A stretch of DNA of 64,000 nucleotides, taken from NCBI RefSeq assembly GCF_008632955.1, contig NZ_CP043959.1, forward strand, positions 5,642,001 to 5,706,000. Direction: 5' to 3'. Numbering within the stretch: position 1 is the first letter of the stretch; the number at the start of each line of letters is the position of its first letter. Below the pieces are notes generated by a model. The model saw nothing but the letters and a program-made list of their open reading frames with translations. It was not told the DNA's origin and did not search any database. Both the position numbers and the translations under genes were made by a program. This document shows positions 4,566-19,339 of the stretch, piece after piece. Source of the stretch: Streptomyces tendae. Its GTDB lineage: Bacteria; Actinomycetota; Actinomycetes; Streptomycetales; Streptomycetaceae.

Positions 4566-5228
4566 TCACACCCCGCCCGCTGCGACCAGTCCCGACTCGT
4601 AAGCCACGATGACGAGTTGGGCCCGGTCGCGGGCGCCGAGCTTGCCCATCGTCCGGCTCACGTGAGTCTTGGCGGTGAGCGGGCTGAGCCCCAGCGCCTC
4701 GGCGATCTCCGTGTTGTTGAGGCCGCGCGCGACCAGCGCCAGGACCTCCCGCTCACGTTCGGACAGGCAGTCGGGCCCCGCGGTCACGGGCAGCGCGGGG
4801 CTGCTCAGGAACCGTGCGATCAGGCGGGCCGTGGGCCCGGGCGACAGGAGCGCGTCGCCGGCCGCCACCGTGCGGATGGCGGCGAGGAGTTCGGCGGGCC
4901 GGGTGTCCTTCACCAGGAAGCCGGAGGCCCCGGCCCGCAGCGCGTCCACGATGTTCTCGTCCGTGTCGTAGGTGGTGAGGACGAGCACCCTGACCCCGGC
5001 GAGGTCGTCGTCCTCGGCGATCAGGCGGGTCGCCTCGATGCCGTCGAGGTCCGGCATCCGGATGTCCATGACGACGAGGTCGGCCCGCTCGCTGCGGGCG
5101 AGTTCCACCGCCTGCCGGCCGGTGGCGGCCTGGCCGACGACCTCCATCCCGGGCGCCGACTCGACGAGCATCGCGAACGCCTCACGCACGAGGGTCTGGT
5201 CGTCGGCGAGCAGGACGCGGACGGTCAT
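4566..5228 (-). CDS. NarL/FixJ-family response regulator
   Basis: 220 aa. The receiver domain (about 1-120) has the acidic pair D9/D10, phospho-acceptor D55 in VVMDIRMPDLDG and the conserved lysine in LVKDTRP. A LuxR-type helix-turn-helix follows at about 150-212 (LSEREREVLALVARGLNNTE, then TAKTHVSRTMGKL). It is expected to bind DNA when phosphorylated by the kinase encoded immediately upstream. Its ATG overlaps the kinase stop in an ATGA junction, so the pair is translationally coupled. The target is probably the same operon, including the MMPL exporter, but no operator was identified. Confidence 0.92.
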   Translation of the reverse strand: MTVRVLLADDQTLVREAFAMLVESAPGMEVVGQAATGRQAVELARSERADLVVMDIRMPDLDGIEATRLIAEDDDLAGVRVLVLTTYDTDENIVDALRAGASGFLVKDTRPAELLAAIRTVAAGDALLSPGPTARLIARFLSSPALPVTAGPDCLSEREREVLALVARGLNNTEIAEALGLSPLTAKTHVSRTMGKLGARDRAQLVIVAYESGLVAAGGV

Positions 5229-6643
5229 CCGGTGGCCCCTTCCCGGGTCGTGGTGGTCAGCGGCAGCGTCGCGGTCACCTGGAAGCCCCCGCCCGCCCGT
5301 GGTCCGGCCTCCAGCGTGCCGCCCACGCTGCGGGCCCGCTCCCGCATGCCGAGGAGCCCGAAGCCGGGGGTGCCGCCCGGGACGGGGCCCGTGCCGTCGT
5401 CGGTGACGGTCAGCCGCAGCACTCCGTCCCCGCCGCTCAGGTCGACGCGCACGGCGGGCTCCGGTCCGGCGTGGCGCACCGCGTTGGTCAGCGCCTCCTG
5501 CACCACGCGGTAGGCGGCGGCGCCGACCGCGGGCGGCACCGGCTCCGTGACCCGCACGTCGTGCTCCACCCGGGCGCCGGCCAGCCGCGCGCCCTCCACC
5601 AGGTCGGGCAGCCCGTCGAGCCCCGCGAGCGGCCCCCGGGCGTCATCGGGGCCGGTGTTGTCGCGCAACACCTCCAGGGTGGCGCGCAGTTCACCGCGTG
5701 CGGTGCGGCAGGTGCCGGCGATGTCGTCGAGGGCCTTGGCCACGGCCGTCCGGTCGAGACGCCCGGGGTCGGCGGTCAGGACGTGCGCGGCGACCGACGT
5801 CTGCACCCCGATGAGGGTGATGCTGTGGGCGAGCAGGTCGTGCAGGTCGCGTGCCACGCGCAGGCGTTCCTCGGCGACCCGGCGGCGTGCCTCCTCCTCG
5901 CGGGTGCGTTCCGCCCGCTCCGCGCGTTCGACGATCGCGGCGACGTAGCGCCGGTAGTGGCGGACGTCGAGGCCCAGGAAGAGGACGGCGACGACCCAGC
6001 CGGTGATGCGGACGAGTTCCGTGAACCCGTCTGGGTTGGTGAGGGCGTTCACGGTGAGGGTGGTGCCGATGACGACGGTGCCGATCAGCAGCGTCCGGCG
6101 CGGGGTGCCGGTCGCGGCGACCGTGTAGAGGGCCACCACGGTCGCGGCCACGGGCGCCCCGTGGTGGTTGTCCAAAGCGTGGTACGGCACGACCGGGGCC
6201 AGCGCCGCCAGGAGCGCCGGCAGCGGCCGTTTCCGCCGCCAGGCCAGCGGCACATGGGCGGCGAGCAGCAGGACCCAGCCGAGCGCGTCGGGCCGGCGGC
6301 CGTCGTCGGTCAGCAGCGCCAGCGTGACGCCCAGGGCGGCGGTGCACGCGGCGAGCACCGCGTCGTTGCGGAAGGCGTGCGGGCGGGTCAGGGGGTCACG
6401 GCTGAGCGCGGTGATGACGCCGTCCCTGGTACGGGAGTCCGCGGTGCGTGACGTCCGGGGCTCCGTGCGCCTCGGTTCCGTACGCCCGGGGTGCGGGGTG
6501 ACGGAGTTCCGGTCACGGGAGTTCCCGGTCCGGGCTGGCTCGGCTGCCTGTGCTGTCGTCGGGTGCACGGGGTCCATCCTCGGGGAGGAGCGCGCCCCTC
6601 CGCGAGGGAGGGGCGCGCTGTCACGGTCGTACGGGCGGATCAC
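5225..6643 (-). CDS. HisKA_3-type sensor histidine kinase
   Basis: Membrane sensor kinase of the NarX/DesK-like class. About four hydrophobic helices occupy the middle (AVLAACTAALGVTLALL, LGWVLLLAAHVPLAW and following). They are followed by the dimerisation/phospho-acceptor box ARDLHDLLAHSITLIGVQTS and an HATPase domain with YRVVQEALTNAVRHAG, LTVTDDGTGP and GFGLLGMRERA. The GTG at 6643 overlaps the transporter stop (GTGA). An internal ATG at 6577 is an alternative start and would remove 22 residues. The very polar, TP/R-rich N-terminus is probably unstructured. The gene lies between the MMPL exporter and its cognate regulator, which suggests the kinase senses a substrate of the exporter or membrane stress. 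Confidence 0.9.
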   Translation of the reverse strand: MIRPYDRDSAPLPRGGARSSPRMDPVHPTTAQAAEPARTGNSRDRNSVTPHPGRTEPRRTEPRTSRTADSRTRDGVITALSRDPLTRPHAFRNDAVLAACTAALGVTLALLTDDGRRPDALGWVLLLAAHVPLAWRRKRPLPALLAALAPVVPYHALDNHHGAPVAATVVALYTVAATGTPRRTLLIGTVVIGTTLTVNALTNPDGFTELVRITGWVVAVLFLGLDVRHYRRYVAAIVERAERAERTREEEARRRVAEERLRVARDLHDLLAHSITLIGVQTSVAAHVLTADPGRLDRTAVAKALDDIAGTCRTARGELRATLEVLRDNTGPDDARGPLAGLDGLPDLVEGARLAGARVEHDVRVTEPVPPAVGAAAYRVVQEALTNAVRHAGPEPAVRVDLSGGDGVLRLTVTDDGTGPVPGGTPGFGLLGMRERARSVGGTLEAGPRAGGGFQVTATLPLTTTTREGATG

Positions 6644-8718
6644 ACCGGCTCCGGCTGCCGCTCACCGCGTTCCGGCTCGGGCGTGCGGGACAGCGGGCCC
6701 GGCCACCACATCCGGCGTCCCAGCAGCACACTCGCCGTGGTGACCAGGTAGGTGCGGACCAGGAAGGTGTCGAGAAGGACGCCGACGGCGATGACGAAGC
6801 CGAGTTCGACCATCGCGACCAGGGGGAGGGTGGTGAGCACCGCGAACGTCGCGGCGAGCACGACGCCCGCGGAGGCGATGACCCCGCCCGTGGTGCGCAG
6901 CGCGGTGAGGGCGGCCGCCTCGGGTTCGGCACCGTTCAGGGACTCCTCCCGCATGCGGTGCATGAGGAAGATGCCGTAGTCGACGCCGAGGGCCACCAGG
7001 AACACGAAGGACAGCAGCCCGATCCCGGGGTCGGTGCCGGCGAAGCCCAGCAGCGGCCCGAACACCAGCCCGCCGATGCCGAGCGCCGCGCCCCAGACGG
7101 CGACCACCGCGCCGAGCAGCAGCAGCGGGGCGACGAGGCTGCGCAGCAGCAGGACGAGGATCAGGAACACGGCGCCGAGCACCAGCGGCACGATCACCGC
7201 GCGGTCCCGCGCCTCGCTGCGGGCGAGGTCGAGCTGCTCCGCGCTGGGCCCGCCGACATGGGCGCCGGTGCCGTCGAGCGTGTCGCGCAGGGCCCCGATG
7301 GTGCGGGTCTCCCCCGCCGACTCCGGCGGCGCGGTGGCGAACACGGTGATCTCGGCCCAGGTGCCGCCGGCCCGTCCCGCGGCGGCCTCGGCGACACCCT
7401 CCGTCTTCCGGACCCGCTCCACGACCTCGTCGGCGTCCCCGGCGGGCGCGATCACGGTGATCGGCTGGGCGCCGCGTTCCGGGTACTCCTCCGCCAGCGT
7501 GCGCATCGCGCTGACGGACTCGGGCCGGTCGGTGAAGCCGTCCTCCTGACGGAGGTCGCCGCCCAGGTTGAGCGTGCCCAGGGCGAGCGCGCCGAGGAGC
7601 ACCGCGCCACCGGTCAGCACGGCCGCGGGCCGGCGGGTGGCGGACGTGCCCATGGCGGCGAACAGCGACCGCCGTGCTTTCGGCGCGCTGCCGTAGGCCG
7701 GGATCAGCGGCCAGAACACGCGCCGCCCGAGCAGCACCAGGACGGCGGGCAGCAGCGTCGTCATCGCGACCAGCGCGGCGAGCACCCCGACCATGCCGAC
7801 GGGACCCATGCCGCTGCTGCTGTTGAGGTCGGCGGCGAGCAGGCACAGCAGTCCGGCGGCGACCGTGCCCGAGGAGGCGAGCACGGCGGGACCGCAGCCG
7901 CGCAGGGCGGCCCGCATGGCGTCGTACGGCCGCTCGTGGCGGCGGAGTTCCTCGCGGTAACGGGAGACCAGCAGCAGCGCGTAGTCGGTCCCGGCGCCGA
8001 GCACGAGGACGGTCATGATGCCGCCGCTCTGTCCGGTGATCGTGATGCCGAACAGCTCGTGCGTGCCGTACGCGGCGGCCATCGCCAGGACGGTCGCGGC
8101 GCCCGCCACGGCGAGCGGCACCAGCCACAGGAACGGGCTGCGGTAGATCAGCACCAGCAGCACGGTGACCACGCCGAGCGTGGCTGTCAGCAGCGTGCCG
8201 TCGATGGTGTCGAACACCTCGTCCATGTCGGAGCCGACCGCCCCGGACCCGCCGACCTCGGCGCTCAGTCCGCCCGTCCCCCCGACGGCCTCCCGCACCC
8301 CGTCGACGAAGGCGAGCTGCGCCTCCTCGTCCTGCCCGGGCCGCGTGCTGGAGACCGGGTACATCAGCGTGCTGCCGTCCGCGGAGGGAACGCCCCGCGG
8401 CACCTCCGACAGCTCGTACGCCCGTTCCACCTCGGCGATCTGCCCGGCGGCCGTCCTCCGGTCGGCGGCGGTCAGCCCGCCGTCGCGGTGGTAGACCACC
8501 ACGAGATCGGTGGACTCGCCGCCGGGCAGCTCGTCCTGGACGCGCGCCACCTGCGTCGAATCGGCGCTGTCGGGCAGGTAGTCGACCGCCCGGTTCTGCT
8601 GCACGTCGGCGAACTTGCCGGCGAGCGGCCAGAGCAGCACCAGCGCCGCCACCCACAGCCCCGCCACCGCCCAGGGCACGGCCCGCCGCCCCCGTGTGCC
8701 CGTCCTGACTGGCCCCAT
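6640..8718 (-). CDS. MMPL/RND-family membrane exporter
   Basis: 692 aa, the usual length for actinobacterial MMPL proteins that export lipids, siderophores or small hydrophobic molecules. The architecture is a first helix (VAGLWVAALVLLWPLAG), a periplasmic domain of about 150 residues, five clustered helices (including VVTVLLVLIYRSPFLWLVPL), the motif GAGTDYALLLVSRYREEL, a second periplasmic domain and a second helix bundle with VALGVDYGIFLMHRMREE. The paired GxxxDYxLFL-type motifs are diagnostic of the family. It is the first gene of an overlapping three-gene operon with a two-component system. A promoter probably lies in 8719-8881, where no clear element was found. Confidence 0.9.
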   Translation of the reverse strand: MGPVRTGTRGRRAVPWAVAGLWVAALVLLWPLAGKFADVQQNRAVDYLPDSADSTQVARVQDELPGGESTDLVVVYHRDGGLTAADRRTAAGQIAEVERAYELSEVPRGVPSADGSTLMYPVSSTRPGQDEEAQLAFVDGVREAVGGTGGLSAEVGGSGAVGSDMDEVFDTIDGTLLTATLGVVTVLLVLIYRSPFLWLVPLAVAGAATVLAMAAAYGTHELFGITITGQSGGIMTVLVLGAGTDYALLLVSRYREELRRHERPYDAMRAALRGCGPAVLASSGTVAAGLLCLLAADLNSSSGMGPVGMVGVLAALVAMTTLLPAVLVLLGRRVFWPLIPAYGSAPKARRSLFAAMGTSATRRPAAVLTGGAVLLGALALGTLNLGGDLRQEDGFTDRPESVSAMRTLAEEYPERGAQPITVIAPAGDADEVVERVRKTEGVAEAAAGRAGGTWAEITVFATAPPESAGETRTIGALRDTLDGTGAHVGGPSAEQLDLARSEARDRAVIVPLVLGAVFLILVLLLRSLVAPLLLLGAVVAVWGAALGIGGLVFGPLLGFAGTDPGIGLLSFVFLVALGVDYGIFLMHRMREESLNGAEPEAAALTALRTTGGVIASAGVVLAATFAVLTTLPLVAMVELGFVIAVGVLLDTFLVRTYLVTTASVLLGRRMWWPGPLSRTPEPERGERQPEPV

Positions 8719-8881: not shown

Positions 8882-10075
8882 TCAGCCCCGGTCGACCATC
8901 CAGGTGCCGTCCTCCTCGTCGTCGACCCGCACCTCCAGCTCGCGCAGGCTCATGCCGGCCTCCCAGAGTTCCCGGAAACGCTTCATCCGGTCGTGCACAT
9001 GGTCCTGACGGGCGATCAGCCGGGTCCGGATGTTGACGTCGCGCAGGTCCTGGTCGATCTCGAAGGACACCGCCTCGTCGTAGACGATGAAGTCGTTGGT
9101 GGTGCCGCGCAGCAGATGCGGCGGCAGCTCCGGCAGGACGGCCACGCGCACCTCGATGTGCAGCACCTCCTGCTCCTCGCACAGCCGCAGCAGCCGGTCG
9201 TCCAGCTCCCGCGCGCTCTCCAGCAGGAACAGCCGCCGCACCGGCACACCGTGCTCGATGGCCTCCTTCTGGGCGTGCAGATAGCGGCTGGCGGGCTCGC
9301 TGTTCCAGAACTGCCGGTCGACGGAGGTGCTGGTGGCGCTGATCGACTTCTCCGCGGCCCGGGTGAGGGTGAGCATCCAGTCGTGGTTCTCGCCCGGGCA
9401 CTCCGCGGTGAGGGTGGTGAGGTCGGTCATGTGCCCGATCACCCGCTGCATCTCCAGCCGGACGAAGGTGGAGAGGATCGGCAGGCCGGGGGCGAGGACC
9501 TCCGCGAAGTTGGTGGCGAGGTCGGACACGGAGTCGATGCGCACCACGGCCGGTGACGGCGGTTCGGGCTCGGCCGGCCGGGCCGGCGGCACCAGGCGTG
9601 TCTCGACGAGCTGTTTCATGTCCTCGGTGTGCCGGTTCAGGCCGTGCCGCAGTTCGTCGTAGCGCCGTAAGCCGCCGCGTACGGAGTCGGCGGTCTCGGC
9701 CAGCAGGCTCTCCGCCCGCCGGGCCCGCTCCTCGGCCGCCCGGTCCGGGACCAGGACGAGGTGCTGGACGACGACGGCGGCCACGGCGCACAGCGCGGCG
9801 GCGCCGAGCTGCCGGGCGGCACCGTCCTCCGGGCCGAGCAGCGCGGCGACGCCCCAGGCGAGCAGTCCGACCACCAGGCCGACCAGCAGCCGGCGCGGCC
9901 AGGGAGTGGGCTCGGGGTGCCGGTCCGGTCCGTCGGCCCCGGTGCCGTCCGGGGTGCGGGGCGGTGTGTCGCGGCCGGGCGGTGCCGGTGCGCGGCCGTC
10001 GGGGTGTTCGGGTGTGCCCACCGTGCCCGGCGGGCCGGTCGCGTTGTCGGGCTGGGGTGACTGTGCCGTGCTCAT
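8882..10075 (-). CDS. Two-TM membrane protein with large C-terminal cytosolic domain, unknown function
   Basis: 397 aa from the ATG at 10075, chosen because GGGGGAG precedes it; the longer in-frame reading to 10153 lacks such a site. Residues 1-58 are a Pro/Gly/Asp-rich disordered tail. Two TM helices lie near 62-80 and 90-108, then a charged coiled-coil-like stretch (AAEERARRAESLLAETADSV). A C-terminal domain of about 190 residues contains AEKSISATSTSVDRQFWNSE, IEHGVPVRRLFLLESARELD and TTNDFIVYDEAV. That domain resembles phospholipase-D-like sensor folds (the 'NDFIVYDE..' strand) but has no HKD catalytic motif. It lies 105 bases downstream of the SCO2521-family gene on the same strand and may belong to that system. 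Confidence 0.75.
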   Translation of the reverse strand: MSTAQSPQPDNATGPPGTVGTPEHPDGRAPAPPGRDTPPRTPDGTGADGPDRHPEPTPWPRRLLVGLVVGLLAWGVAALLGPEDGAARQLGAAALCAVAAVVVQHLVLVPDRAAEERARRAESLLAETADSVRGGLRRYDELRHGLNRHTEDMKQLVETRLVPPARPAEPEPPSPAVVRIDSVSDLATNFAEVLAPGLPILSTFVRLEMQRVIGHMTDLTTLTAECPGENHDWMLTLTRAAEKSISATSTSVDRQFWNSEPASRYLHAQKEAIEHGVPVRRLFLLESARELDDRLLRLCEEQEVLHIEVRVAVLPELPPHLLRGTTNDFIVYDEAVSFEIDQDLRDVNIRTRLIARQDHVHDRMKRFRELWEAGMSLRELEVRVDDEEDGTWMVDRG

Positions 10076-10114
10076 CTCGCTTCTCCCCCCGTTGGGAAAC
10101 ACGTCGGTTCGGGA

Positions 10115-10143
10115 TGCGTACTTGTGCGTGGGGGTCCGGTCGA
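10115..10143 (-). promoter_or_regulatory. Weak candidate promoter for the two-TM protein gene
   Basis: On the minus strand TCGACC and TACGCA are separated by 17 bases, ending 39 bases before the ATG at 10075. The match to a Streptomyces vegetative promoter is modest. It would allow expression independent of the upstream SCO2525-2521 genes. Confidence 0.25.
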
Positions 10144-10180
10144 GTCCGCTCACGGCTGGTGGGCGTCTCGTGGGCGGGGA

Positions 10181-11215
10181 TCAGGGGGCGGGTTCCACCT
10201 CCCGGTGCGCCGGCGGGATCGCGTGCAGGGTGAGCTGGTCGCGGACGCGCTGCACCAGGGCGAGCCATTGCCGGGTGAACCCGGGCCGCTCCTCCAGCGC
10301 CTCCCACAGCGGGGCCAGTTCCCCGGACACCCGGGCCCGCGGCATCCACAGGTGCAGCAGATGGTCGACGGCGGGCCGCAACGCCCGCACCGCCGGCGGC
10401 AGATCACCGTCCGGGCCGGTGCGGGGCCAGGACCGGGATCCGGCGGGGCCCAGGCGGATGCCGTCGAGGACACGGACCAGGGTGGTCAGCAGCCAGTCGT
10501 GCAGGGCGAGGTCGTCGCAGAGCCCGGCCAGGTCCGCGGCCGGGGTGCCCTCGGGGACCCGCAGCCGTACGGTGCGCAGCTCGTCCTCGGCGAGGGTGAA
10601 CCGCTCCAGGGCGGGCGGCTCGCCCTGCGGCGCGGTCAGCGCCACCCAGCGCAGCCGGGTGGGCCGGGACCTGAGGGGCGGCCGCTGGTCGAGCAGCGGG
10701 TGCCGCAGCAGCCGGGTGAGCAGCCCGCCGGCGATCAGTCCGACGTCGAGGTCGCCGTGGCGTCCGCCGTCGAGGAGGCCGTCGGCGACCGCGTCGCGGG
10801 GCAGCTTCCCCAGCGGCTCGACCAGTCCGGGCCGCACCAGGTAGTCGCCCCAGGGGCGGCGGTGGTCGGGCCCGGAGGCGGTGAGGCGGAAGGAGGCGGA
10901 GGTCTGCAGCACCCGGCCCTCGGTGAGCGCGGCCCGCGCGGCGACCGTGCCGACCGCGCGGACCCGGGCGCCGTTGGCGCTGGGCAGCGGGCAGTCGACG
11001 CCGGTCAGGGTGTCCGGGGAGCGTCCGTAGAGGTTGGGGCGCTCGGACACCAGGACCCGCTCGTCGGCGCGCAGCCGCAGCAGCTGGGCGGCGGCGCGGC
11101 TGTCGAGGGCCTGCGCGGCCGGCAGCAGACAGGTGCGGACCTCGCCGCAGGCGAGCACGGCGCCCGGTGCGGCCGTCTCCGGCCGCACGCCGGGTCCCCC
11201 CGCCGACGCCCGCAC
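10181..11215 (-). CDS. SCO2521-family protein, unknown function
   Basis: 344 aa, last of the tight five-gene run. It starts at GTG 11215, one base after the stop of the SCO2522-family gene. No catalytic motif, signal peptide or TM segment is seen. Notable segments are ACGEVRTCLLPAAQALDSRA near the N-terminus, RPNLYGRSPDTLTGVDCPLP, and a leucine/arginine-rich helical C-terminal half (RALRPAVDHLLHLWMPRARV). The body looks like a mixed alpha/beta cytosolic protein. Family assignment rests on remembered actinobacterial family names and the matching gene order. Its constant association with the altered P-loop ATPase gene suggests a partner or substrate role in the same complex. Confidence 0.75.
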   Translation of the reverse strand: MRASAGGPGVRPETAAPGAVLACGEVRTCLLPAAQALDSRAAAQLLRLRADERVLVSERPNLYGRSPDTLTGVDCPLPSANGARVRAVGTVAARAALTEGRVLQTSASFRLTASGPDHRRPWGDYLVRPGLVEPLGKLPRDAVADGLLDGGRHGDLDVGLIAGGLLTRLLRHPLLDQRPPLRSRPTRLRWVALTAPQGEPPALERFTLAEDELRTVRLRVPEGTPAADLAGLCDDLALHDWLLTTLVRVLDGIRLGPAGSRSWPRTGPDGDLPPAVRALRPAVDHLLHLWMPRARVSGELAPLWEALEERPGFTRQWLALVQRVRDQLTLHAIPPAHREVEPAP

Positions 11216-11216
11216 C

Positions 11217-12182
11217 TCAGGCCCCCTCGTAGTAGACGTAGGAGACGCGGTCGGTCACCGGGCCGGGGACGGGCACGCCCTCGCGCCCGGAGCGTTCGGC
11301 GACCTGGGCCAGCGCCTCGCGGTCCACGTCGGTCTGGTCGAGGATCACCCGCACGGCGTGCTCGACGGGCAGGAAGCGGTTGGGGAGCACGGAGCAGGTC
11401 CGGTAGGCGGCGAAGGGGTCCGCCCGGGGGTTGAGCCGCACCAGCGGGGGGAGGTCGTCCCAGTCGTCGGGGAACGCGGCACCGGTGTGCGGCTCCGCGG
11501 CGAAGACGGCCTCGCCCTGGTGGCGGAGCAGCCCGAGGCGGGCGAGCTGCCACACGGCGGCCAGGAAGGGGCAGGACCACAGGCGCGCCCCGTCGGCACC
11601 GTCGTTCCACAGCTCGACGTCCAGGAACACGGAGTGGCGGCGGGCGGCGGTCTCGGTGGGCGGCTGCCAGGCGGTGGCCTTGCGCATCGCCTGGGGGGCG
11701 CGGGCGGTGGGGCTGCGCACCCCGTTGGCCAGCCAGCCGGTCCGCGCGGTCGGCGGCCGGTGGCCGTAGCTGCCGGGCGGCGGTTCCTCGACGATGCGGG
11801 CGGCCACCGCCTCGGCGACCGGCACCTTTCCGGTGACGGCGCAGCCGGACTCGCGGGCCAGGTAGTCGACGGTCAGCCCGGCGCGCTCGGCCTCCGCCAG
11901 CAGCAGGGGCACGACGTCGGCGGGGCCGGCGAAGCGGGCGAAGTAGTCGTCGACGAGGAAGCAGGTGCTGACACGGGGGCGCTTCCCGCCGGCCCGGTCG
12001 CGCGCGTCGGCGCGGGCGGCCTCCACCCAGGGCCGCACCCGGGCGAAGTGCCGGCGCAGGTGGCCCGCCCCGGCCTCGAAGTCCTCCATGTACAGGTGGC
12101 CCAGCTCCAGGGAGAGGTGGGACAGCGGCACCGCCTGGGTGCGCGGTTCGGCGGTGGTCTCACGGAACACCGCTTCGGTCAT
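11217..12182 (-). CDS. SCO2522-family protein, unknown function
   Basis: 321 aa from the ATG at 12182, which overlaps the upstream gene's TGA (ATGA), so translation is coupled. Visible blocks are LSHLSLELGHLYMEDFEAGA, RVSTCFLVDDYFARFAGPAD, YLARESGCAVTG, LDVELWNDG and a C-terminal RFLPVEHAVRVILDQTDVDR. The VSTCFLVDDYF plus ESGCAVTG pattern gives two conserved-looking cysteines and a DDYF acidic patch, which could form a small active site. This is inference only. There is no signal peptide and no membrane segment. Function cannot be assigned; context places it between the ATPase and the SCO2521-family gene. Confidence 0.8.
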   Translation of the reverse strand: MTEAVFRETTAEPRTQAVPLSHLSLELGHLYMEDFEAGAGHLRRHFARVRPWVEAARADARDRAGGKRPRVSTCFLVDDYFARFAGPADVVPLLLAEAERAGLTVDYLARESGCAVTGKVPVAEAVAARIVEEPPPGSYGHRPPTARTGWLANGVRSPTARAPQAMRKATAWQPPTETAARRHSVFLDVELWNDGADGARLWSCPFLAAVWQLARLGLLRHQGEAVFAAEPHTGAAFPDDWDDLPPLVRLNPRADPFAAYRTCSVLPNRFLPVEHAVRVILDQTDVDREALAQVAERSGREGVPVPGPVTDRVSYVYYEGA

Positions 12183-13096
12183 GGCAGCCCCCAGTGCGCG
12201 TCGTCGGTGAGCCGCCGGGCGATCTCCTCGAGCGCCTCCAGCGTCTCCTTGTTGGCGATCTGGGTGGCGAGCACGTCGTCCTCGGTGATCAGCTGCTCGC
12301 GCCACTGCAGGATCGGCTCCAGCGGTACGGTGCCGAGCACCACGCTGTCGCCGATGTGCTGGTCGGAGGCGAGCCGGCGCAGCGCCTTGTTGCAGGACTG
12401 CATCCACGCCGCCTGGGCGGGCGAGCCCTGCGCCCACATGGCCGACTCGGGGTCGGGCACGGCGGCCCGGACGAAGCGGATGTTGCCCCGCAGGGCCGCC
12501 TCGTCGTGCCCGCGGTCGACGCCGCCGCGCAGGATGCCGTTCTCCTTGTGGACCAGCCCGGCGGCGGCGATGACGTGCTGCCGGGTCCAGCGGTGGAAGA
12601 CCAGCCAGCGGTAGGCGACATGGCGCATCCGGAGGTGGGCCGTGGCCGCCAGGACCAGGTCGACGGCGTAGCTGCGGCCGGCGCTGAGGTCGACCATGAC
12701 GAGGTCGAACTCGCTGTTGAGCCGCAGCAGCAGGTCGATGCAGCGCTCCAGCGCGTCCTCGCCGGTGGCGAACTCGCCGCCGCCCGCGTCGCCGGGGTAG
12801 AGCACCAGCCGCCCGGCCTGGTTCTGCCGGGCGCGCAGCACGGTGTGCTCGGTCTGCCGCCAGATGTCGATGCTGGCCGGTTCGGTGACCTCGCCCTCCA
12901 GGTAGGAGTGCAGGCCCCGTTCCTCGGTGCCGCGCAGCGCGCTGGGCACGTCGAAGACGGCGGCGGCGGTGGGCGAGCCGAAGTCGAAGTCCACGTAGGC
13001 GACGTGGTCGCCGACGAGGGCGCGCTGGTAGGCCAGGTTGGCGCTCGTGACCGAGCGGCCCGTGCCTCCCTTGTCGGAGGCCGCGAAGACGAGCAC
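12179..13096 (-). CDS. SCO2523-family ParA/MinD-like ATPase with variant P-loop
   Basis: 305 aa. The N-terminus MLVFAASDKGGTGRSVTSAN is a deviant Walker A of the ParA/MinD/Mrp class. The signature lysine K9 and GG are present, but the usual second lysine is arginine (R14). The VDFDFGSP strand (D36/D38) matches the Walker A' switch, and VMVDLSAGRS (D136) the Walker B. Such ATPases dimerise on nucleotide and position or assemble partners. Whether hydrolysis survives the Lys-to-Arg change is unknown. No membrane-targeting helix is obvious at the C-terminus. It sits third in the five-gene run, 3 bases after the SCO2524-family gene and overlapping the SCO2522-family start by four bases. Confidence 0.85.
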   Translation of the reverse strand: MLVFAASDKGGTGRSVTSANLAYQRALVGDHVAYVDFDFGSPTAAAVFDVPSALRGTEERGLHSYLEGEVTEPASIDIWRQTEHTVLRARQNQAGRLVLYPGDAGGGEFATGEDALERCIDLLLRLNSEFDLVMVDLSAGRSYAVDLVLAATAHLRMRHVAYRWLVFHRWTRQHVIAAAGLVHKENGILRGGVDRGHDEAALRGNIRFVRAAVPDPESAMWAQGSPAQAAWMQSCNKALRRLASDQHIGDSVVLGTVPLEPILQWREQLITEDDVLATQIANKETLEALEEIARRLTDDAHWGLP

Positions 13097-13099
13097 GGC

Positions 13100-14944
13100 T
13101 CAGCCCTCCTGCGCTGCGGCGTCCCGGGCCTGGGCCAGGGTGTCGAGTTCCTGGAGCACGGGCAGGGCGAGCGCGAAGGCGGTGGCGGGCCGGTCGTCGA
13201 CCAGGCTGCGGGCGTGGTCGAGCCGGCTCTCTATGCTCCGCATCGCCCGGCCGCGGCTGCCGTCGGCGGTGGTGGACGCCTCCAGCTGTTCCTTGCCGAA
13301 CAGGTGGGTCGCCTCGCTGAGCAGGTCCCGGGCCAGCTCGGCGAGTTCCGGGCTGCGGATGGGCTGCTGCTCGTACATGTTGCGGGCGGCCACCAGGCAC
13401 TCGGTGACGCGCTCGGTGACGCTCCAGGACAGGCGGCGGTTGACGTCGCGGGCGTCCGGGAAGACGGCCCGTACGTCGTCCCAGAGGCCGGCGCCGTGGC
13501 CGTCCTCGATCCTGCGGTTCCACAGGTGTTCGAAGGTCTGTTCGGCCAGGCGCAGCAGCCGGTCCTGGGCGTCGATGTTCCGCGACAGCTCGGCGAGCTG
13601 GACGGTCCGCTTCAGCAGCTGGGCGGAGAAGTCGGTCATCCGCCACTGGAGCAGCGACCCGGACCGCTCGGACCCGGCGAGCGGCATCAGCACGCCCGGG
13701 TCGTGCAGCCGGACGACGGGGTCGTTCCTGGTCATCCGGCTGGTGACGCGGCCGCGGTCGGCGAGGCGCTCCATGATGGCGACGGTGCGGGTGAGGTCGT
13801 CGTCGGTGGCCTTCCGGCGCACCAGGTCGTGGACCAGGATGGCCGCGACGGTGAGGGAGAAGTACTCCGACTCCAGGCGCAGTCCGGTGGTCTGCCAGGG
13901 CAGGTCCTCCAGGGGCCAGCGCTCGGAGCCGAAGCGGGCGACGGCCGACCAGTACTGCTGGCTCAGTTCCCAGCGCAGCCGCAGTGCCTCGGCGAGTTTC
14001 TGCTGGTCGGCGTCGAGCAGCCCGAGGGTGAGGGTGCGCTCGGAGAACAGGTCCTGGATGCCGTCGAGGGCGACGACGGTGAAGTACACGTACGGCAGCC
14101 GGTCGGCGATGCCGTCGGGCTGGCCGGCCACCTGGAGGTCCAGGTCGGTGATCCGGGGGGCGTCCTTGACCACGCCCCAGGCCCAGCCGCACTCGAAGAG
14201 CTGGCTCTCGTCGCGGATGGACTCGTCGACCTGGATGCCGCGGCTGAGGCTCTCGATGATGGTGGCGCGCAGCGGGCGGAAGCGGCGGGAGAACTGCTGG
14301 AGCACCGCCCGGTCGGAGTGCCGGTTCTGGCCGATGACCTGGATCAGCCGTCGGCCCTGTTCGGACTCGGCGTCGAACACGTTCACCGTGAAGGAGCGCA
14401 GCAGGCTGATCATCGCGGCGGTCAGCCGCGTGTTGGTGGCGTCCCGGAGTTCGCCGAGCGCCCGGCGCACTTCGGGGCGGGTGGTGCTGCTCTCGTAGAC
14501 CTTGAGGAAGCCGAGGGTGGCCAGGCACAGGGTGACCGACATGGAGTAGGAGTCGACGACGCCTAACTTGCCCTGCTCATAGGTGAGTTCGTCGCCCGGG
14601 TCGACCGGTTTGAAGTACGGTCCGCCGGCGAAGGTGGGGCTGTCGTCGGGCCCGGTGTGGGTGCGCATGAACTGGGTCAGCGCGGTGATCAGGTTCGGCG
14701 GGATCTCCAGCCGGCTGCCGACGCGCTCCAGTGCTTGGAGCACGTCCCGCTCGGTGGTGTCCGGCTGGTCCAGGCGGAAGGCGGGGATCTCGGTGGCGGG
14801 GTAGAGCAGGCAGAGCAGCCGTTCGGCGTCCGCGACACTGCTCAGCCCGTCGGTGTCCCCCCAGACGAGCTTGCCGTCGTCGAACGAGTGGCGGGCCGCG
14901 GCTCGCCAGATGTCCAGCAAATGCTGGCGCGGCTTGATCTGCAT
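13100..14944 (-). CDS. SCO2524-family protein, large, unknown function
   Basis: 614 aa, largely alpha-helical by composition, with no TM segment or signal peptide. It begins MQIKPRQHLLDIWRAAARHS. Later blocks include LGVVDSYSMSVTLCLATLGF, FECGWAWGVVKDAPRI, YVYFTVVALDGIQDLFSERT and WPLEDLPWQTTGLRLESEYF. The length and helical, leucine-rich character suggest a scaffold or sensor subunit. The start ATG is preceded by GAGGGGTAGGGGG, a strong ribosome-binding site that also overlaps a possible 12-codon ORF. It is the second gene of the run, between the methyltransferase and the ATPase. Assignment is by remembered family name and gene order; no enzymatic role can be read from the sequence. Confidence 0.8.
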   Translation of the reverse strand: MQIKPRQHLLDIWRAAARHSFDDGKLVWGDTDGLSSVADAERLLCLLYPATEIPAFRLDQPDTTERDVLQALERVGSRLEIPPNLITALTQFMRTHTGPDDSPTFAGGPYFKPVDPGDELTYEQGKLGVVDSYSMSVTLCLATLGFLKVYESSTTRPEVRRALGELRDATNTRLTAAMISLLRSFTVNVFDAESEQGRRLIQVIGQNRHSDRAVLQQFSRRFRPLRATIIESLSRGIQVDESIRDESQLFECGWAWGVVKDAPRITDLDLQVAGQPDGIADRLPYVYFTVVALDGIQDLFSERTLTLGLLDADQQKLAEALRLRWELSQQYWSAVARFGSERWPLEDLPWQTTGLRLESEYFSLTVAAILVHDLVRRKATDDDLTRTVAIMERLADRGRVTSRMTRNDPVVRLHDPGVLMPLAGSERSGSLLQWRMTDFSAQLLKRTVQLAELSRNIDAQDRLLRLAEQTFEHLWNRRIEDGHGAGLWDDVRAVFPDARDVNRRLSWSVTERVTECLVAARNMYEQQPIRSPELAELARDLLSEATHLFGKEQLEASTTADGSRGRAMRSIESRLDHARSLVDDRPATAFALALPVLQELDTLAQARDAAAQEG

Positions 14945-14948
14945 CCCC

Positions 14949-14987
14949 CTACCCCTCGTACAGATCCGGTTGCCCGTGTGCAGACAT
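14949..14987 (-). other. Possible 12-codon micro-ORF between the SCO2525- and SCO2524-family genes
   Basis: An ATG at 14987 opens MSAHGQPDLYEG and stops at 14949, four bases before the next ATG. It starts 11 bases after the methyltransferase stop. The stop codon is embedded in the next gene's ribosome-binding region, so it could couple translation, or it may be chance. No recognised peptide family. Confidence 0.2.
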
Positions 14988-14998
14988 GGTCCCCGTTC

Positions 14999-15769
14999 CT
15001 ACGTGTCGGCAATCGCCGAATTCCGCCGTCCCAGGGCGAGGATGATGCCCTCGTGTCCCGTCCGGACCATGTGGTGCAGATCGTGGATCTCCAGGTCGTC
15101 GGCCCAGTCCCGCAGGGAGTCGCGTACCCCCTGCTCGTCCACCCGGTAGGCCGGATACCGGTGGTCGCCGACCTGGTAACCGACCGACTCCTTCATGAAG
15201 GCGGTGGCGAACGGGGCGCCCTCGTTCAGCGCGCCCATGAAGCAGGTCACGCCGCGGCGGAACTCGTCGGGGCACTCCGACATGGAGTCGGCGACGAAGA
15301 ACATGGTCCCGATGTCCCAGCGGCGCTGGCCGTCGAGGTCCAGGAGGTTGGCCCGCTCCACGCGCACGATCTCGCCGAAGCGTCCCCTCGGCTCGACGTC
15401 CGCGTAGGCGGGGTGCTTGCCCAGCTGGTCCCAGAAGGGGTCCCAGACCACGTCGTACCCCGCGGGGGACGCCTGCTTCTCCAGGTACTCCACGTTGGGC
15501 CGGGCGTACTCCAGCAGCAGGACCTTCTCGCACCAGGGCAGCATCGACAGCGCCGGGTAGAGGTTCGCACCGGCACCCACGTCGACGCCGCGCACCGAGT
15601 CCGGGACGCCGTCCGCGAAGCACTTCCCGAAGTAGTCGCGCATCAGCCGCACGATCAGCAGATCGACCTCGAGGGGGTTGCGGTAGTTGGCGTCGACATA
15701 GGCCTCAGGATCGAACTTCGACCACGGGGCGTCGGCGTTTCGGTCCATCATCACCCTGCCGCGTTCCAT
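14999..15769 (-). CDS. SCO2525-family SAM-dependent methyltransferase (NNMT/PNMT-like)
   Basis: 256 aa from ATG 15769. An internal ATG at 15751 is an alternative, and neither has a strong ribosome-binding site. Motif I is GVDVGAGANLYPALSMLPW (residues 61-79). Together with LLLEYARPNVEYLEK it resembles the SAM site of the nicotinamide/phenylethanolamine/thioether N-methyltransferase fold rather than the common UbiE type. Later blocks are DIGTMFFVADSMSECPDEF and a C-terminal HHMVRTGHEGIILALGRR. The likely reaction is methyl transfer to a small amine or a peptide side chain; the substrate is unknown. It is the first gene of the co-directional run and so probably sits next to the shared promoter. 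Confidence 0.85.
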   Translation of the reverse strand: MERGRVMMDRNADAPWSKFDPEAYVDANYRNPLEVDLLIVRLMRDYFGKCFADGVPDSVRGVDVGAGANLYPALSMLPWCEKVLLLEYARPNVEYLEKQASPAGYDVVWDPFWDQLGKHPAYADVEPRGRFGEIVRVERANLLDLDGQRRWDIGTMFFVADSMSECPDEFRRGVTCFMGALNEGAPFATAFMKESVGYQVGDHRYPAYRVDEQGVRDSLRDWADDLEIHDLHHMVRTGHEGIILALGRRNSAIADT

Positions 15770-15965
15770 TCAGTGTCGGACAAGACCGTGTGCCCTGACT
15801 GCGCGTTCCGGCGAACGTCGGCAGGTGAAGCAGCATCTCCGGTTCTCGCACGGTAGGCCGAAGTGGCACGCGGAGACAGCCAGGAACACGCCAGTCCTCT
15901 ATGACGGGCGCACGGCAGGCGCACGTCAGCATCTCCGTGCACACCCGAACTCGCCCTTGCACGCG

Positions 15966-15986
15966 GTGAGTTGACGGCTCACTCTA
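15966..15986 (-). promoter_or_regulatory. Candidate operator/-10 element upstream of the SCO2525-2521 run
   Basis: The palindrome GTGAG-ttgacgg-CTCAC (15966-15982) overlaps a minus-strand TAGAGT (15981-15986) that fits a Streptomyces -10 box. No convincing -35 is seen. The 317-base gap 15770-16086 holds nothing else recognisable and separates the cluster from the divergent GNAT gene. Confidence 0.3.
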
Positions 15987-16086
15987 GCCAGAAGACGCCA
16001 CCGGCCGCCACCGGGAGCCGCAATCCTCCCGGGTGAACGCGCCGGTGCGTTCGCGTTGACGTCCGCACGTCCCGACTGGGGGTGGC

Positions 16087-16626
16087 ATGACCGCCGAACC
16101 GCTGGAGCGCACGCTGGACCGGCACGGGCACCTCGGGGACCCCGGCGGGTCACCCGGACCGGGTGCCCCGGTCCTGCGGGGGGCCCGGGAGTCCGATCTG
16201 CCCGAGCTGCGCCGGCTCGACGAGGAGGTGTTCCAGGAGGTCGCGTATCCGGCCTTCCTGCTGCGCCAGCTGTTCGACGTGTACTCCGAGCACTTCCTGG
16301 TCCTGGACGACGGCACGGGCGGACTGCGCGGCTACGTCCTGGCCGCGACCACGGCGTTCAGCCGGGACAGCTGGATCCTCGGCCTGTGCGTGACCGAGGG
16401 GCACCGCCGGCACGGGCTGGGCCGGGAGCTGATGACGGAGATCCTGGCGCGGCTGCGTGAGGACGGCATCGAGCAGGTGCGCCTGACGGTCGAGCCCGCC
16501 AACCGCGCCGCGATCCTCCTCTACCGCTCCCTGGGCTTCCGCCCCGAGGAACCGGACGGGGGCCTGCGCCGTGACTACTTCGGCTCGGGCGAACACCGCA
16601 GGATCATGCACCTGGAGCTGCGCTGA
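16087..16626 (+). CDS. GNAT-family N-acetyltransferase
   Basis: 179 aa with a full GNAT core after a disordered 30-residue N-terminus. RESDLPELRRLDEEVFQEVA is the first strand/helix. LGLCVTEGHRRHGLGRELM supplies the acetyl-CoA pyrophosphate loop (Q/RxxGxG type, RRHGLG). VRLTVEPANRAAILLYRSLG with FRPEE is motif B, as in RimI-like enzymes. It probably acetylates a protein N-terminus, amino acid or small amine; the specificity cannot be told. Only a weak G-rich site precedes the ATG. It is divergent from the SCO2525-2521 run and convergent with the TerB-like gene, so no operon is evident. Confidence 0.85.
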   Translation: MTAEPLERTLDRHGHLGDPGGSPGPGAPVLRGARESDLPELRRLDEEVFQEVAYPAFLLRQLFDVYSEHFLVLDDGTGGLRGYVLAATTAFSRDSWILGLCVTEGHRRHGLGRELMTEILARLREDGIEQVRLTVEPANRAAILLYRSLGFRPEEPDGGLRRDYFGSGEHRRIMHLELR

Positions 16627-16647: not shown

Positions 16648-17343
16648 TCAGGACGGCGTGCGGGCCGCCGCCAGGAGGCGGCCGACGTCGTCCGAGCAGA
16701 TGGTGAGGGCCGCGCCCACCGTGGCGAGGGCGTCGCGTTCGGCGGGGGTGTACGGGCCGTCGGCGAGGGCGATCCGGGCGCCCTGGAGCAGGATCGCCTC
16801 GCGGCCCGGGCCGGCCAGATGGGGCGCCAGCGGGTCCAGCGCCTCGTGCAGCTCGATGGACAGGCCCGCCACACACGGCTCACCGGTGAAACGTCCGGTG
16901 TCCGCCTCCAGCGCCTCGACCAGCGCGGCGAGCTGCTCCTCCGTGCAGTCCTCGATGCCGGCCGCGCGCACTCCGGCCGCGGCGGTCTCCAGGGCGGCGC
17001 GGGAGCAGGCGCCGCCCGCGGCGAGCACGGCGAGGGCGACGGTGTGGACGGCGTCCCGCAGCATCGCGGAGAAGCGGGTGGTGGTGGGGTGGTCCAGCAC
17101 GTCGGTGCCGAAGTGGCGGCGGCAGGCGGCGCACTCGACGGTCGGCGCGCAGGCCCCGCGCGGCAGCACGGGCACACCCAGCACGGTGAAGCGGCGGCGG
17201 CCGGTCAGCCGCTGGTAGTTGCGGTCCCCGCCGCAGCCGGGGCAGAAGAACTCCCCGTCGCCGACGGCGGTCCAGGCGGCGCGGGTGCCGAACAGGCGCG
17301 CGCGTGCGGAGGTACGGCCGTCGGGTCCCCGTTCTGGCAGCAC
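16648..17343 (-). CDS. Zinc-ribbon plus TerB-like protein
   Basis: 231 aa. The first 90 residues carry two CxxC knuckles, EFFCPGCGGDRNYQRL and VECAACRRHFG, spaced for one zinc ribbon. The rest is all-helical and ends in a TerB-like segment (EAILLQGARIALADGPYTPA, ERDALATVGAALTI). TerB domains occur in tellurite and stress systems and in phage-defence contexts. In Streptomyces this protein is usually a stand-alone gene beside leuA, as here. It likely serves as a small metal-binding adaptor; no enzymatic residues are seen. Bases 17344-17460 upstream show no clear promoter. Confidence 0.75.
   Translation of the reverse strand: MLPERGPDGRTSARARLFGTRAAWTAVGDGEFFCPGCGGDRNYQRLTGRRRFTVLGVPVLPRGACAPTVECAACRRHFGTDVLDHPTTTRFSAMLRDAVHTVALAVLAAGGACSRAALETAAAGVRAAGIEDCTEEQLAALVEALEADTGRFTGEPCVAGLSIELHEALDPLAPHLAGPGREAILLQGARIALADGPYTPAERDALATVGAALTICSDDVGRLLAAARTPS

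Positions 17344-17530: not shown

Positions 17531-19339
<1,809 letters not shown>

Follow-up and report, generated by a model that had tools for sequence, protein, structure and literature searches.

The nearest described counterparts of the locus analyzed here are five NCBIfam families, NF040564 to NF040568 (SCO2521 to SCO2525), of which five of its genes are members and which occur together. The model names denote families only, and the GNAT gene, the two membrane protein types, and the toroid described below are absent from them. Conservons (cvn operons) are likewise Streptomyces operons that join an NTPase to a membrane partner; however, none of their domains (histidine-kinase-like, roadblock, DUF742, and Ras-like) was found in the cluster proteins, which do not form the defining CvnA-to-CvnD set. 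Besides, the actinobacterial VMAP/FxSxx systems of conflict and peptide processing, described mainly from multicellular prokaryotes, also have a variant or inactive MinD/ParA-like component (PMC7159879), but none of their hallmarks (vWA, MoxR, radical-SAM, and metallopeptidase domains and the FxSxx family) was detected in the six cluster proteins scanned. PADLOC models identified no known anti-phage system among the five NCBIfam-family proteins and the two-TM protein, beyond one weak match for SCO2523.

The window, i.e., the whole 64,000-nucleotide stretch of Streptomyces tendae DNA that was analyzed, contains five minus-strand genes from 15769 down to 10181, placed there by a first-pass annotation, and all five belong to the SCO2525 to SCO2521 families with scores over the NCBIfam cut-offs. 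The two-TM protein annotated after this run indeed has two hydrophobic segments. The gene set was nevertheless incomplete, as a divergent RimI-like acetyltransferase gene had been missed. The features are as follows.

16087 to 16626, plus strand: RimI-like GNAT N-acetyltransferase, divergent from the operon (Pfam Acetyltransf_1, 1.5e-16)
15770 to 16086, no strand: divergent intergenic control region (MAFFT alignment of 19 upstream regions)
14999 to 15769, minus strand: SCO2525-family SAM methyltransferase, NNMT/PNMT/TEMT-like (NF040568, 310 bits, cut-off 240; PF01234, 4.2e-10)
13100 to 14944, minus strand: SCO2524-family protein, predicted (alpha/alpha)6 toroid (NF040567, 946 bits, cut-off 300; AF2 model)
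12179 to 13096, minus strand: SCO2523-family MinD/ParA-like protein with variant P-loop KGGTGRS (NF040564, 502 bits, cut-off 200)
11217 to 12182, minus strand: SCO2522-family protein, probably alpha/beta, with many invariant His/Asp/Glu/Cys residues (NF040566, 487 bits, cut-off 200)
10181 to 11215, minus strand: SCO2521-family protein (NF040565, 408 bits, cut-off 150)
8882 to 10075, minus strand: membrane protein (TM2) with two N-terminal hydrophobic segments, a linker, and a DUF6879-like C-terminal domain (DUF6879 matches among relatives; hydropathy)

From SCO2525 down to SCO2521, the genes are separated by 54 nt, 3 nt, a 4-nt overlap, and 1 nt. By gene count, the acetyltransferase gene (counting up to leuA) would be SCO2526 and the two-TM gene SCO2520. 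The neighbors of the cluster are ordinary chromosomal genes, namely, leuA and, named by eye, uppS and recO.

Among 140 Streptomyces genomes, SCO2524, SCO2523, SCO2522, and SCO2521 exceeded their cut-offs in an identical set of 26, and SCO2525 did so in 25, the 26th (G359) carrying broken remnants of it; a SCO2521 remnant was found in genome G314. Independent occurrence, which the first-pass annotation had named as counting against its proposal, was thus not observed for any core family in these genomes. Weaker SCO2525-like methyltransferases are present elsewhere. We further surveyed 115 loci of four actinobacterial families, f1 (Streptomyces; 83 loci), f85 (14 loci), f3 (13 loci), and f84 (5 loci), with locus counts that draw on the closest 80 of 259 confirmed SCO2524 loci. 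The positive genomes read were 14 of 19 in f85, 5 of 5 in f84, and 13 of 13 in f3, and the f1 loci include at least one duplicate, since L015 and L059 are the same genome place. The core SCO2524-SCO2523-SCO2522-SCO2521 was invariant and its order constant in the surveyed loci. Co-occurrence is strict in the 140 Streptomyces genomes, and the core order is fixed across the four families.

The methyltransferase and the acetyltransferase are common yet optional parts. SCO2525, the NNMT-like enzyme, is missing in f3 (0 of 13 loci) and f84 (0 of 5 loci) and does not belong to the core, and the GNAT gene is present in 81 of 83 f1, 13 of 13 f3, 10 of 14 f85, and 0 of 5 f84 loci. Because the core is always found together, and nearly always with one membrane protein, the four core genes, the membrane protein, and the optional enzymes very probably build one machine. 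In a HupS study, sco2521 to sco2526 are reported to respond jointly in the hupS mutant and in the hupA-hupS double mutant (PMC11472566). This joint response, the strict co-occurrence, and the constant core order favor the earlier idea of one machine, though not any one of the types suggested there (modification/export, signalling, or conflict).

Distances between the cluster proteins correlate with LeuA distances (r, 0.64 to 0.77), and inheritance therefore looks mostly vertical. We found no match to SCO2524 in the plasmid collection, no match to SCO2522 in the phage collection, and no relative of SCO2524 among viral contigs, and we dropped a mobile or phage origin on these searches (one protein or profile per collection). 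No conserved small ORF was recognized in the gaps of the cluster or in the 1 kb that follows it; by eye, the many raw matches looked like shadow ORFs in GC-rich genes or like conserved stretches of intergenic DNA. A RiPP pathway with a small precursor was likewise set aside.

The membrane slot was filled by the DUF6879-like two-TM protein in 96 of the 115 loci and by another C-terminal two-TM protein in 15, never by both; three of the four loci with neither type end at a contig edge, the exception being L160. In L154, L156, L158, and L162, TM2 has been relocated inside the cluster yet kept, and in L121, one membrane protein serves two clusters. TM2 thus belongs to the cluster, in agreement with its earlier assignment, as it is retained when moved and, apart from L160 and the loci cut by contig ends, replaced by another two-TM protein when missing. 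Its start is likelier to be ATG 10075, about 105 nt past SCO2521, than the listed GTG 10153, which is probably too long, because a ribosome-binding-like sequence lies upstream of the ATG and many relatives align from there. Hydropathy analysis (threshold 1.3) gave two segments in 67 of 70 TM2 proteins, one in 2, and three in 1. DUF6879 (PF21806) matched the TM2 of the window at 14.1 bits (E, 0.034; gathering score, 23.9) and was found at an E of ≤1 in 30 of 34 aligned TM2 members (best, 2.9e-9) and at an E of ≤0.01 in 8 of 10 f84/f85 relatives (best, L148 with 42.3 bits). A DUF6879 search across this genome returned zero matches and, since it likewise missed the TM2 of the window, was uninformative. 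The DUF6879 fold may be phospholipase D-like; HxK4D occurs in 2 of 72 TM2 proteins. The second membrane type has two hydrophobic segments in 7 of 10 proteins and three in 3 of 10, and these, together with a weak Ion_trans_2 match in 1 of 10 (E, 0.29), suggest that it may be ion-channel-like. Sequence profiles of both membrane types gave nothing significant against the PDB.

Canonical MinD/ParA ATPases carry the deviant Walker A motif KGGxGK[S/T] with both lysines. SCO2523 shares with them the fold, the signature lysine, and the Walker aspartates but has arginine at the P-loop lysine: the motif is KGGTGRS in 79 of 80 Streptomyces relatives among the loci listed and KGGAGRT in the other, confirming the altered P-loop of the first-pass annotation. 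Residues D8, K9, G10, G11, T12, G13, R14, S15, D36, D38, and D136 were each conserved in 94 or more of 95 proteins from Streptomyces and f3. SCO2523 also matched the NCBIfam KGGVGR ATPase model at 1.3e-10, below its cut-off; as this model has matches in 14 of 14 control genomes, the match shows only general MinD/ParA family membership, and we rejected a special link to conflict-system KGGVGR ATPases.

For SCO2524, an (alpha/alpha)6 toroid is predicted by its AF2 model (pLDDT, 71.9; pTM, 0.73), which aligned with toroid structures at VIA-align Z scores of 13 to 16.6 and 6 to 12% identity among the 50 matches listed. Foldseek support was weak (best, Nro1 with an E of 0.0088; cellobiose 2-epimerase, 0.029), and no PDB sequence matched at an E below 0.7. 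In the model, invariant positions make up 44 of 106 residues on the presumed inner helices versus 37 of 229 on the outer ones. N-acylglucosamine 2-epimerases, GH76, and class II terpene cyclases, which are toroids, would share this fold, the comparison at 6 to 12% identity being one of fold alone. We dropped the reading of a DDD in SCO2524 as the class II terpene cyclase motif, as it opens a presumed outer helix of the model and only D383 is invariant. SCO2522 is probably an alpha/beta protein; its AF2 model is poor (pLDDT, 48.8), and a fold search with it gave no match at an E below 0.4. SCO2524, SCO2522, and SCO2521 had no over-cut-off match outside their own families in either Pfam or NCBIfam, nor any significant PDB sequence match, including with profiles of SCO2522 and SCO2521. 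A weak NCBIfam match of SCO2521 to an ABC transporter family (E, 0.0066; 15.4 bits) was taken as chance.

SCO2525 matched PF01234 (NNMT_PNMT_TEMT) at 39.7 bits (gathering score, 25; E, 4.2e-10) and thus falls in the NNMT/PNMT/TEMT family of small-molecule amine methyltransferases. Its glycine-rich motif DVGAGANLYPA is presumably the SAM site, and judging from the upstream-region alignment, the true start may lie a few codons downstream. The acetyltransferase of the window reached 51.6 bits (9.8e-14) and that of L121 77.2 bits against the rimI model TIGR01575, both below the cut-off of 86.4.

We consider, at a probability of roughly 40%, that the cluster encodes a nucleotide-switched complex of several proteins that is coupled to the membrane and acts as a regulator or effector in growth and development. 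SCO2523, whose MinD/ParA fold would bind ATP or GTP, might with its P-loop arginine serve as a switch that hydrolyses slowly or not at all and that controls assembly of the complex. A ligand would be bound or converted by SCO2522, with its many invariant His/Asp/Glu/Cys residues, and by the predicted SCO2524 toroid, whose presumed inner helices carry conserved residues; the state of the core would be relayed between core and membrane protein in one direction or the other. The acetyltransferase and methyltransferase could adjust the complex by acting on one of its components or on the ligand, a role that fits their optional presence. This reading draws on the strict co-occurrence, the single membrane slot with its two exchangeable types, the retention of TM2 after relocation and its rapid divergence, the conserved P-loop arginine alongside intact nucleotide-site residues, the share of invariant positions on the presumed inner helices of SCO2524, the joint response of sco2521 to sco2526, and the morphogenetic role reported for SCO2525. 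The only mutant phenotype that we found in the literature for the cluster genes concerns SCO2525, reported to affect growth of Streptomyces coelicolor and, with reference to earlier work, to have a morphogenetic role (PMC6344877). Several observations count against such a complex: enzyme-like folds suit a biosynthetic pathway equally, the sole phenotype lies on an optional gene, the HupS-study group of sco2521 to sco2526 does not include the membrane gene (PMC11472566), L160 has neither membrane type, and L121 shares one protein between two clusters.

The main rival, possible but doubtful, is a tailoring or biosynthetic pathway. In it, a sugar, lipid, or small amine would be produced or processed by SCO2524 and SCO2522, methylated by SCO2525, and acetylated by the GNAT, and the enzymes would be brought to the membrane by SCO2523 and the membrane protein. 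Sugar epimerases, glycosidases, and class II terpene cyclases have the fold predicted for SCO2524, SCO2525 falls in a small-molecule amine methyltransferase family, a GNAT is present, invariant polar residues lie on the presumed inner helices of SCO2524, and the growth and development effect reported for SCO2525 (PMC11472566, PMC6344877) fits a metabolite. However, Pfam showed no transporter domain in the six proteins, carrier and ligase domains were also absent from the proteins scanned, no conserved small ORF was recognized around the cluster, each of the two tailoring enzymes is absent from some clusters, Foldseek support for the toroid is weak (best E, 0.0088), and a common fold says nothing of function.

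Alternatively, the core might sense invasion while the exchangeable membrane protein damages the membrane and the two enzymes restrain it. Such an anti-phage or inter-bacterial conflict system would account for the scattered occurrence (26 of 140 Streptomyces genomes), the decayed copies in G359 and G314, and the exchangeable membrane part, which is also the fastest evolving: in 70 complete clusters, incomplete ones being excluded, core identity between clades A and B was 64 to 70% versus 32% for TM2. We defined these clades by SCO2524 identity to the window (A, about 83% or more, 42 clusters; B, about 64 to 71%, 26 clusters; L063 and L064 set aside). Published conflict systems, too, include inactive MinD/ParA-like domains (PMC7159879). 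We nevertheless regard this as unlikely: five of the six proteins scanned matched no PADLOC family and SCO2523 gave one weak match (PDC-M28B, residues 7 to 44, 18.2 bits), the plasmid, phage, and viral-contig searches were negative for the protein used in each, the flanks (leuA; uppS and recO) are ordinary, the distances track LeuA, and the KGGVGR link is unspecific. A MinD/ParA-type device positioning a membrane complex at hyphal tips or septa, which the SCO2523 fold, the membrane partner, and the reported developmental effect of SCO2525 (PMC11472566, PMC6344877) would fit, is very unlikely, since the P-loop lysine is replaced in 80 of 80 Streptomyces relatives among the loci listed and the hydrolysis cycle of such devices should be impaired. 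That unrelated genes merely adjoin is hardly credible; each can be read as a separate family, but strict co-occurrence and constant core order in four families contradict it.

More ambitiously, the nucleotide-switched complex might be a previously unrecognized kind of machine, in which an ATP switch controls a toroid enzyme complex with interchangeable membrane outputs (DUF6879 or channel-like two-TM), tuned by acetylation and methylation and built mostly from proteins that lack known relatives, that controls growth or death decisions in multicellular actinobacteria; we regard this as rather unlikely. Three of the core families are without curated relatives, yet the core co-occurs strictly in Streptomyces, and an attached gene, SCO2525, is reported to affect growth and development. 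The exchangeable membrane part and the predicted toroid offer testable handles on genes labelled only by locus number in NCBIfam. In the HupS study, cvn12 falls in the same group as sco2521 to sco2526 (PMC11472566). Upstream of the operon, sequence blocks are conserved among clade A species, and only a CAAG block is common to all 19 rows upstream of coding ends.

The operon and its surroundings in the window were laid out as follows.

8882-15769, minus strand: homologues of SCO2525, SCO2524, SCO2523, SCO2522, and SCO2521 and a two-TM protein (TM2)
16087-16626, plus strand: RimI-like GNAT acetyltransferase, divergent from the operon
16648-17343, minus strand: probable TerB-like zinc-ribbon protein (identified by eye), flanking the cluster
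17531-19252, minus strand: leuA (2-isopropylmalate synthase), flanking the cluster

The spacing from SCO2525 down to SCO2521 (54 nt, 3 nt, a 4-nt overlap, and 1 nt) bore out that of the first-pass annotation, whose six minus-strand genes stand, although it had left out the divergent GNAT gene at 16087-16626. ATG 10075, approximately 105 nt past SCO2521, is most likely the start of the two-TM gene. In the divergent intergenic region (15770-16086), blocks around CTTCTGGCTAGAGTGAGC and TGCAAGGGCGAGTT were conserved among clade A species (SCO2524 at least ~83% identical to that of the window; clade B, ~64 to 71%), and these are possibly a promoter or operator.

The core families SCO2524, SCO2522, SCO2521, and SCO2523 were found over the cut-off in an identical set of 26 of 140 Streptomyces genomes, as matched up by eye, including one (G355) with SCO2524 divided over two contigs. 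The earlier proposal that these genes form one machine was upheld insofar as independent occurrence was not seen: no core family was present over the cut-off without the other three in any of the 140 genomes. Matches below the cut-off comprised one short SCO2524 match (G340), an SCO2521 remnant carrying a stop (G314), generic ParA matches, and other methyltransferases scoring 116 to 164 bits. SCO2525 was over the cut-off in 25 of the 26 core-bearing genomes; the 26th (G359) has two broken SCO2525 remnants at C1:4078617-4079115 next to an intact core, indicating that the methyltransferase can be lost. In wider searches, SCO2524 was present in 5/296 genomes (phylum-wide) and SCO2522 in 37/394 genomes (class-wide; 7/137 genera in four families); a separate search of family f3 gave SCO2522 in 13/251 genomes, all of one genus.

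An HMM survey covered 115 loci of four actinobacterial families (83 of f1, i.e., Streptomyces, 13 of f3, 5 of f84, and 14 of f85). The core was complete in all but L031, in which SCO2521 falls past the contig end. DUF6879-like TM2 was encoded in 96 loci and a second type of membrane protein in 15, never both together; of the four loci with neither, three (L024, L031, and L037) are cut by a contig edge, which does not explain L160. The acetyltransferase was found in 81/83, 13/13, 0/5, and 10/14 loci of f1, f3, f84, and f85, respectively, and SCO2525 in 82/83, 0/13, 0/5, and 9/14; the misses in f1 (L044 and L045), as well as L151, are situated at contig ends. The side of the core on which the acetyltransferase gene lies differs from family to family, and in f85 the TM2 gene is placed between SCO2523 and SCO2522 (L156, L158, and L162) or, in L154, sits in reverse orientation between SCO2525 and SCO2524. 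Since both genes relocate and are nevertheless kept, they are likely components of the system. A different, second GNAT-like gene, recognized by eye, was near the cluster in 8/14 f85 loci (L151, L152, L153, L154, L155, L157, L160, and L162).

The second membrane protein (~280 aa) has hydrophobic segments close to its C terminus, where RWFR or KWFR is followed by a single last residue, and its family gave no significant Pfam match. Its gene is convergent to SCO2521 in L112 to L123 and L017. One f3 locus (L121:4224-16481, genome G583) carries two complete divergent core copies and two acetyltransferase genes, with the second membrane protein beside just one copy.

In SCO2523, the residues of D8-K-G-G-T-G-R14-S and D36, D38, and D136 were each conserved in 94 or more of 95 Streptomyces and f3 sequences; judging from sequence, the nucleotide site looks complete save for the P-loop lysine. 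The SCO2524 structure model (pLDDT, 71.9; pTM, 0.73) gave Z scores of 13 to 16.6 among the 50 VIA-align matches listed. These matches included complement thioester domains, N-acylglucosamine and cellobiose 2-epimerases, GH76, and terpene cyclases, which we take to be alpha/alpha toroids. Foldseek E values were weak (0.0088 for Nro1, a helical import adaptor, and then 0.029 for a cellobiose 2-epimerase), and the tool cautions that high scores come easily to helical models. Invariant positions made up 44/106 of the presumed inner helices versus 37/229 of the outer ones, in a split made by eye and itself presumptive. SCO2522 was modeled poorly (pLDDT, 48.8), and a fold search with this model returned no match; H22, E26, H29, D78, D79, D106, E111, C114, H183, D188, and C204 were each conserved in 93 or more of the 94 sequences compared. 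For SCO2521, the domain/family and structure-sequence searches gave no significant relative, the lone weak NCBIfam match having an E value of 0.0066.

The reading that fits best is a membrane-coupled regulatory or effector complex, given the strict core, the single membrane protein of each cluster (with two exchangeable types), the putative nucleotide switch lacking the P-loop lysine, and the optional acetyl- and methyltransferases. The main rival is a tailoring pathway, to which the enzyme-like predicted toroid of SCO2524 and the small-molecule type of the SCO2525 methyltransferase would both be suited. The cluster may instead serve in phage defense, as its patchy distribution, decayed copies, and changing membrane part would allow, but beyond these three features we saw no positive sign of such a role.

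SCO2525 reportedly influences colony growth and development, as ascribed to Gehring in 2004. Our literature search found SCO2520 to SCO2525 mentioned only in PMC11472566 (a HupS study), PMC6344877, and PMC3017869, and SCO2526 only in PMC11472566. The HupS study reports that sco2521 to sco2526 change jointly in hupS and hupA-hupS mutants. In the other two, SCO2525 is described as having a part in morphogenesis and as a putative methyltransferase (PMC6344877) and is named within a hypothesis on SAM levels (PMC3017869). Conflict systems containing inactive MinD/ParA-like domains are described in PMC7159879, in whose main text the string SCO25 is absent. The cluster as such is not new, since all five families have names already and one mutant's effect is cited in print; this analysis adds its composition, exchangeable membrane part, and predicted toroid.

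Among 70 complete Streptomyces clusters, mean identities between the clades (42 versus 26 clusters) were 70% for SCO2523, 69% for SCO2522, 65% for SCO2524, and 64% for SCO2521, and 51% for GNAT, 49% for SCO2525, and 32% for TM2. Relative to LeuA, mean distances were 2.3- to 3.4-fold for the core, 4.2-fold for the two enzymes, and 5.5-fold for TM2 (46 to 52 loci by gene), with correlations of 0.64 to 0.77. This pattern is consistent with inheritance that was mainly vertical, accompanied by losses, and with rapid evolution of the membrane part. TM2 of L045 is only 28% identical to that of the window, far below its core genes (71 to 88%), which suggests an exchange. Among 80 Streptomyces loci, the closest of 259 confirmed SCO2524 loci, leuA lay inside the stretch read in 52, only three of them of clade B (L077, L084, and L085). 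Downstream genes taken by eye for uppS and recO were found in 14 and 11 of 29 loci, mostly of clade B, and the site looks like ordinary chromosome. The minus-strand genes at 5225-8718, identified by eye as encoding a sensor histidine kinase and an MMPL-family transporter, follow the two-TM gene in just part of the close relatives, and MMPL relatives (37 to 38%) also lie, perhaps by chance, a few kilobases off the core in 4/13 f3 loci (L113, L114, L116, and L117).
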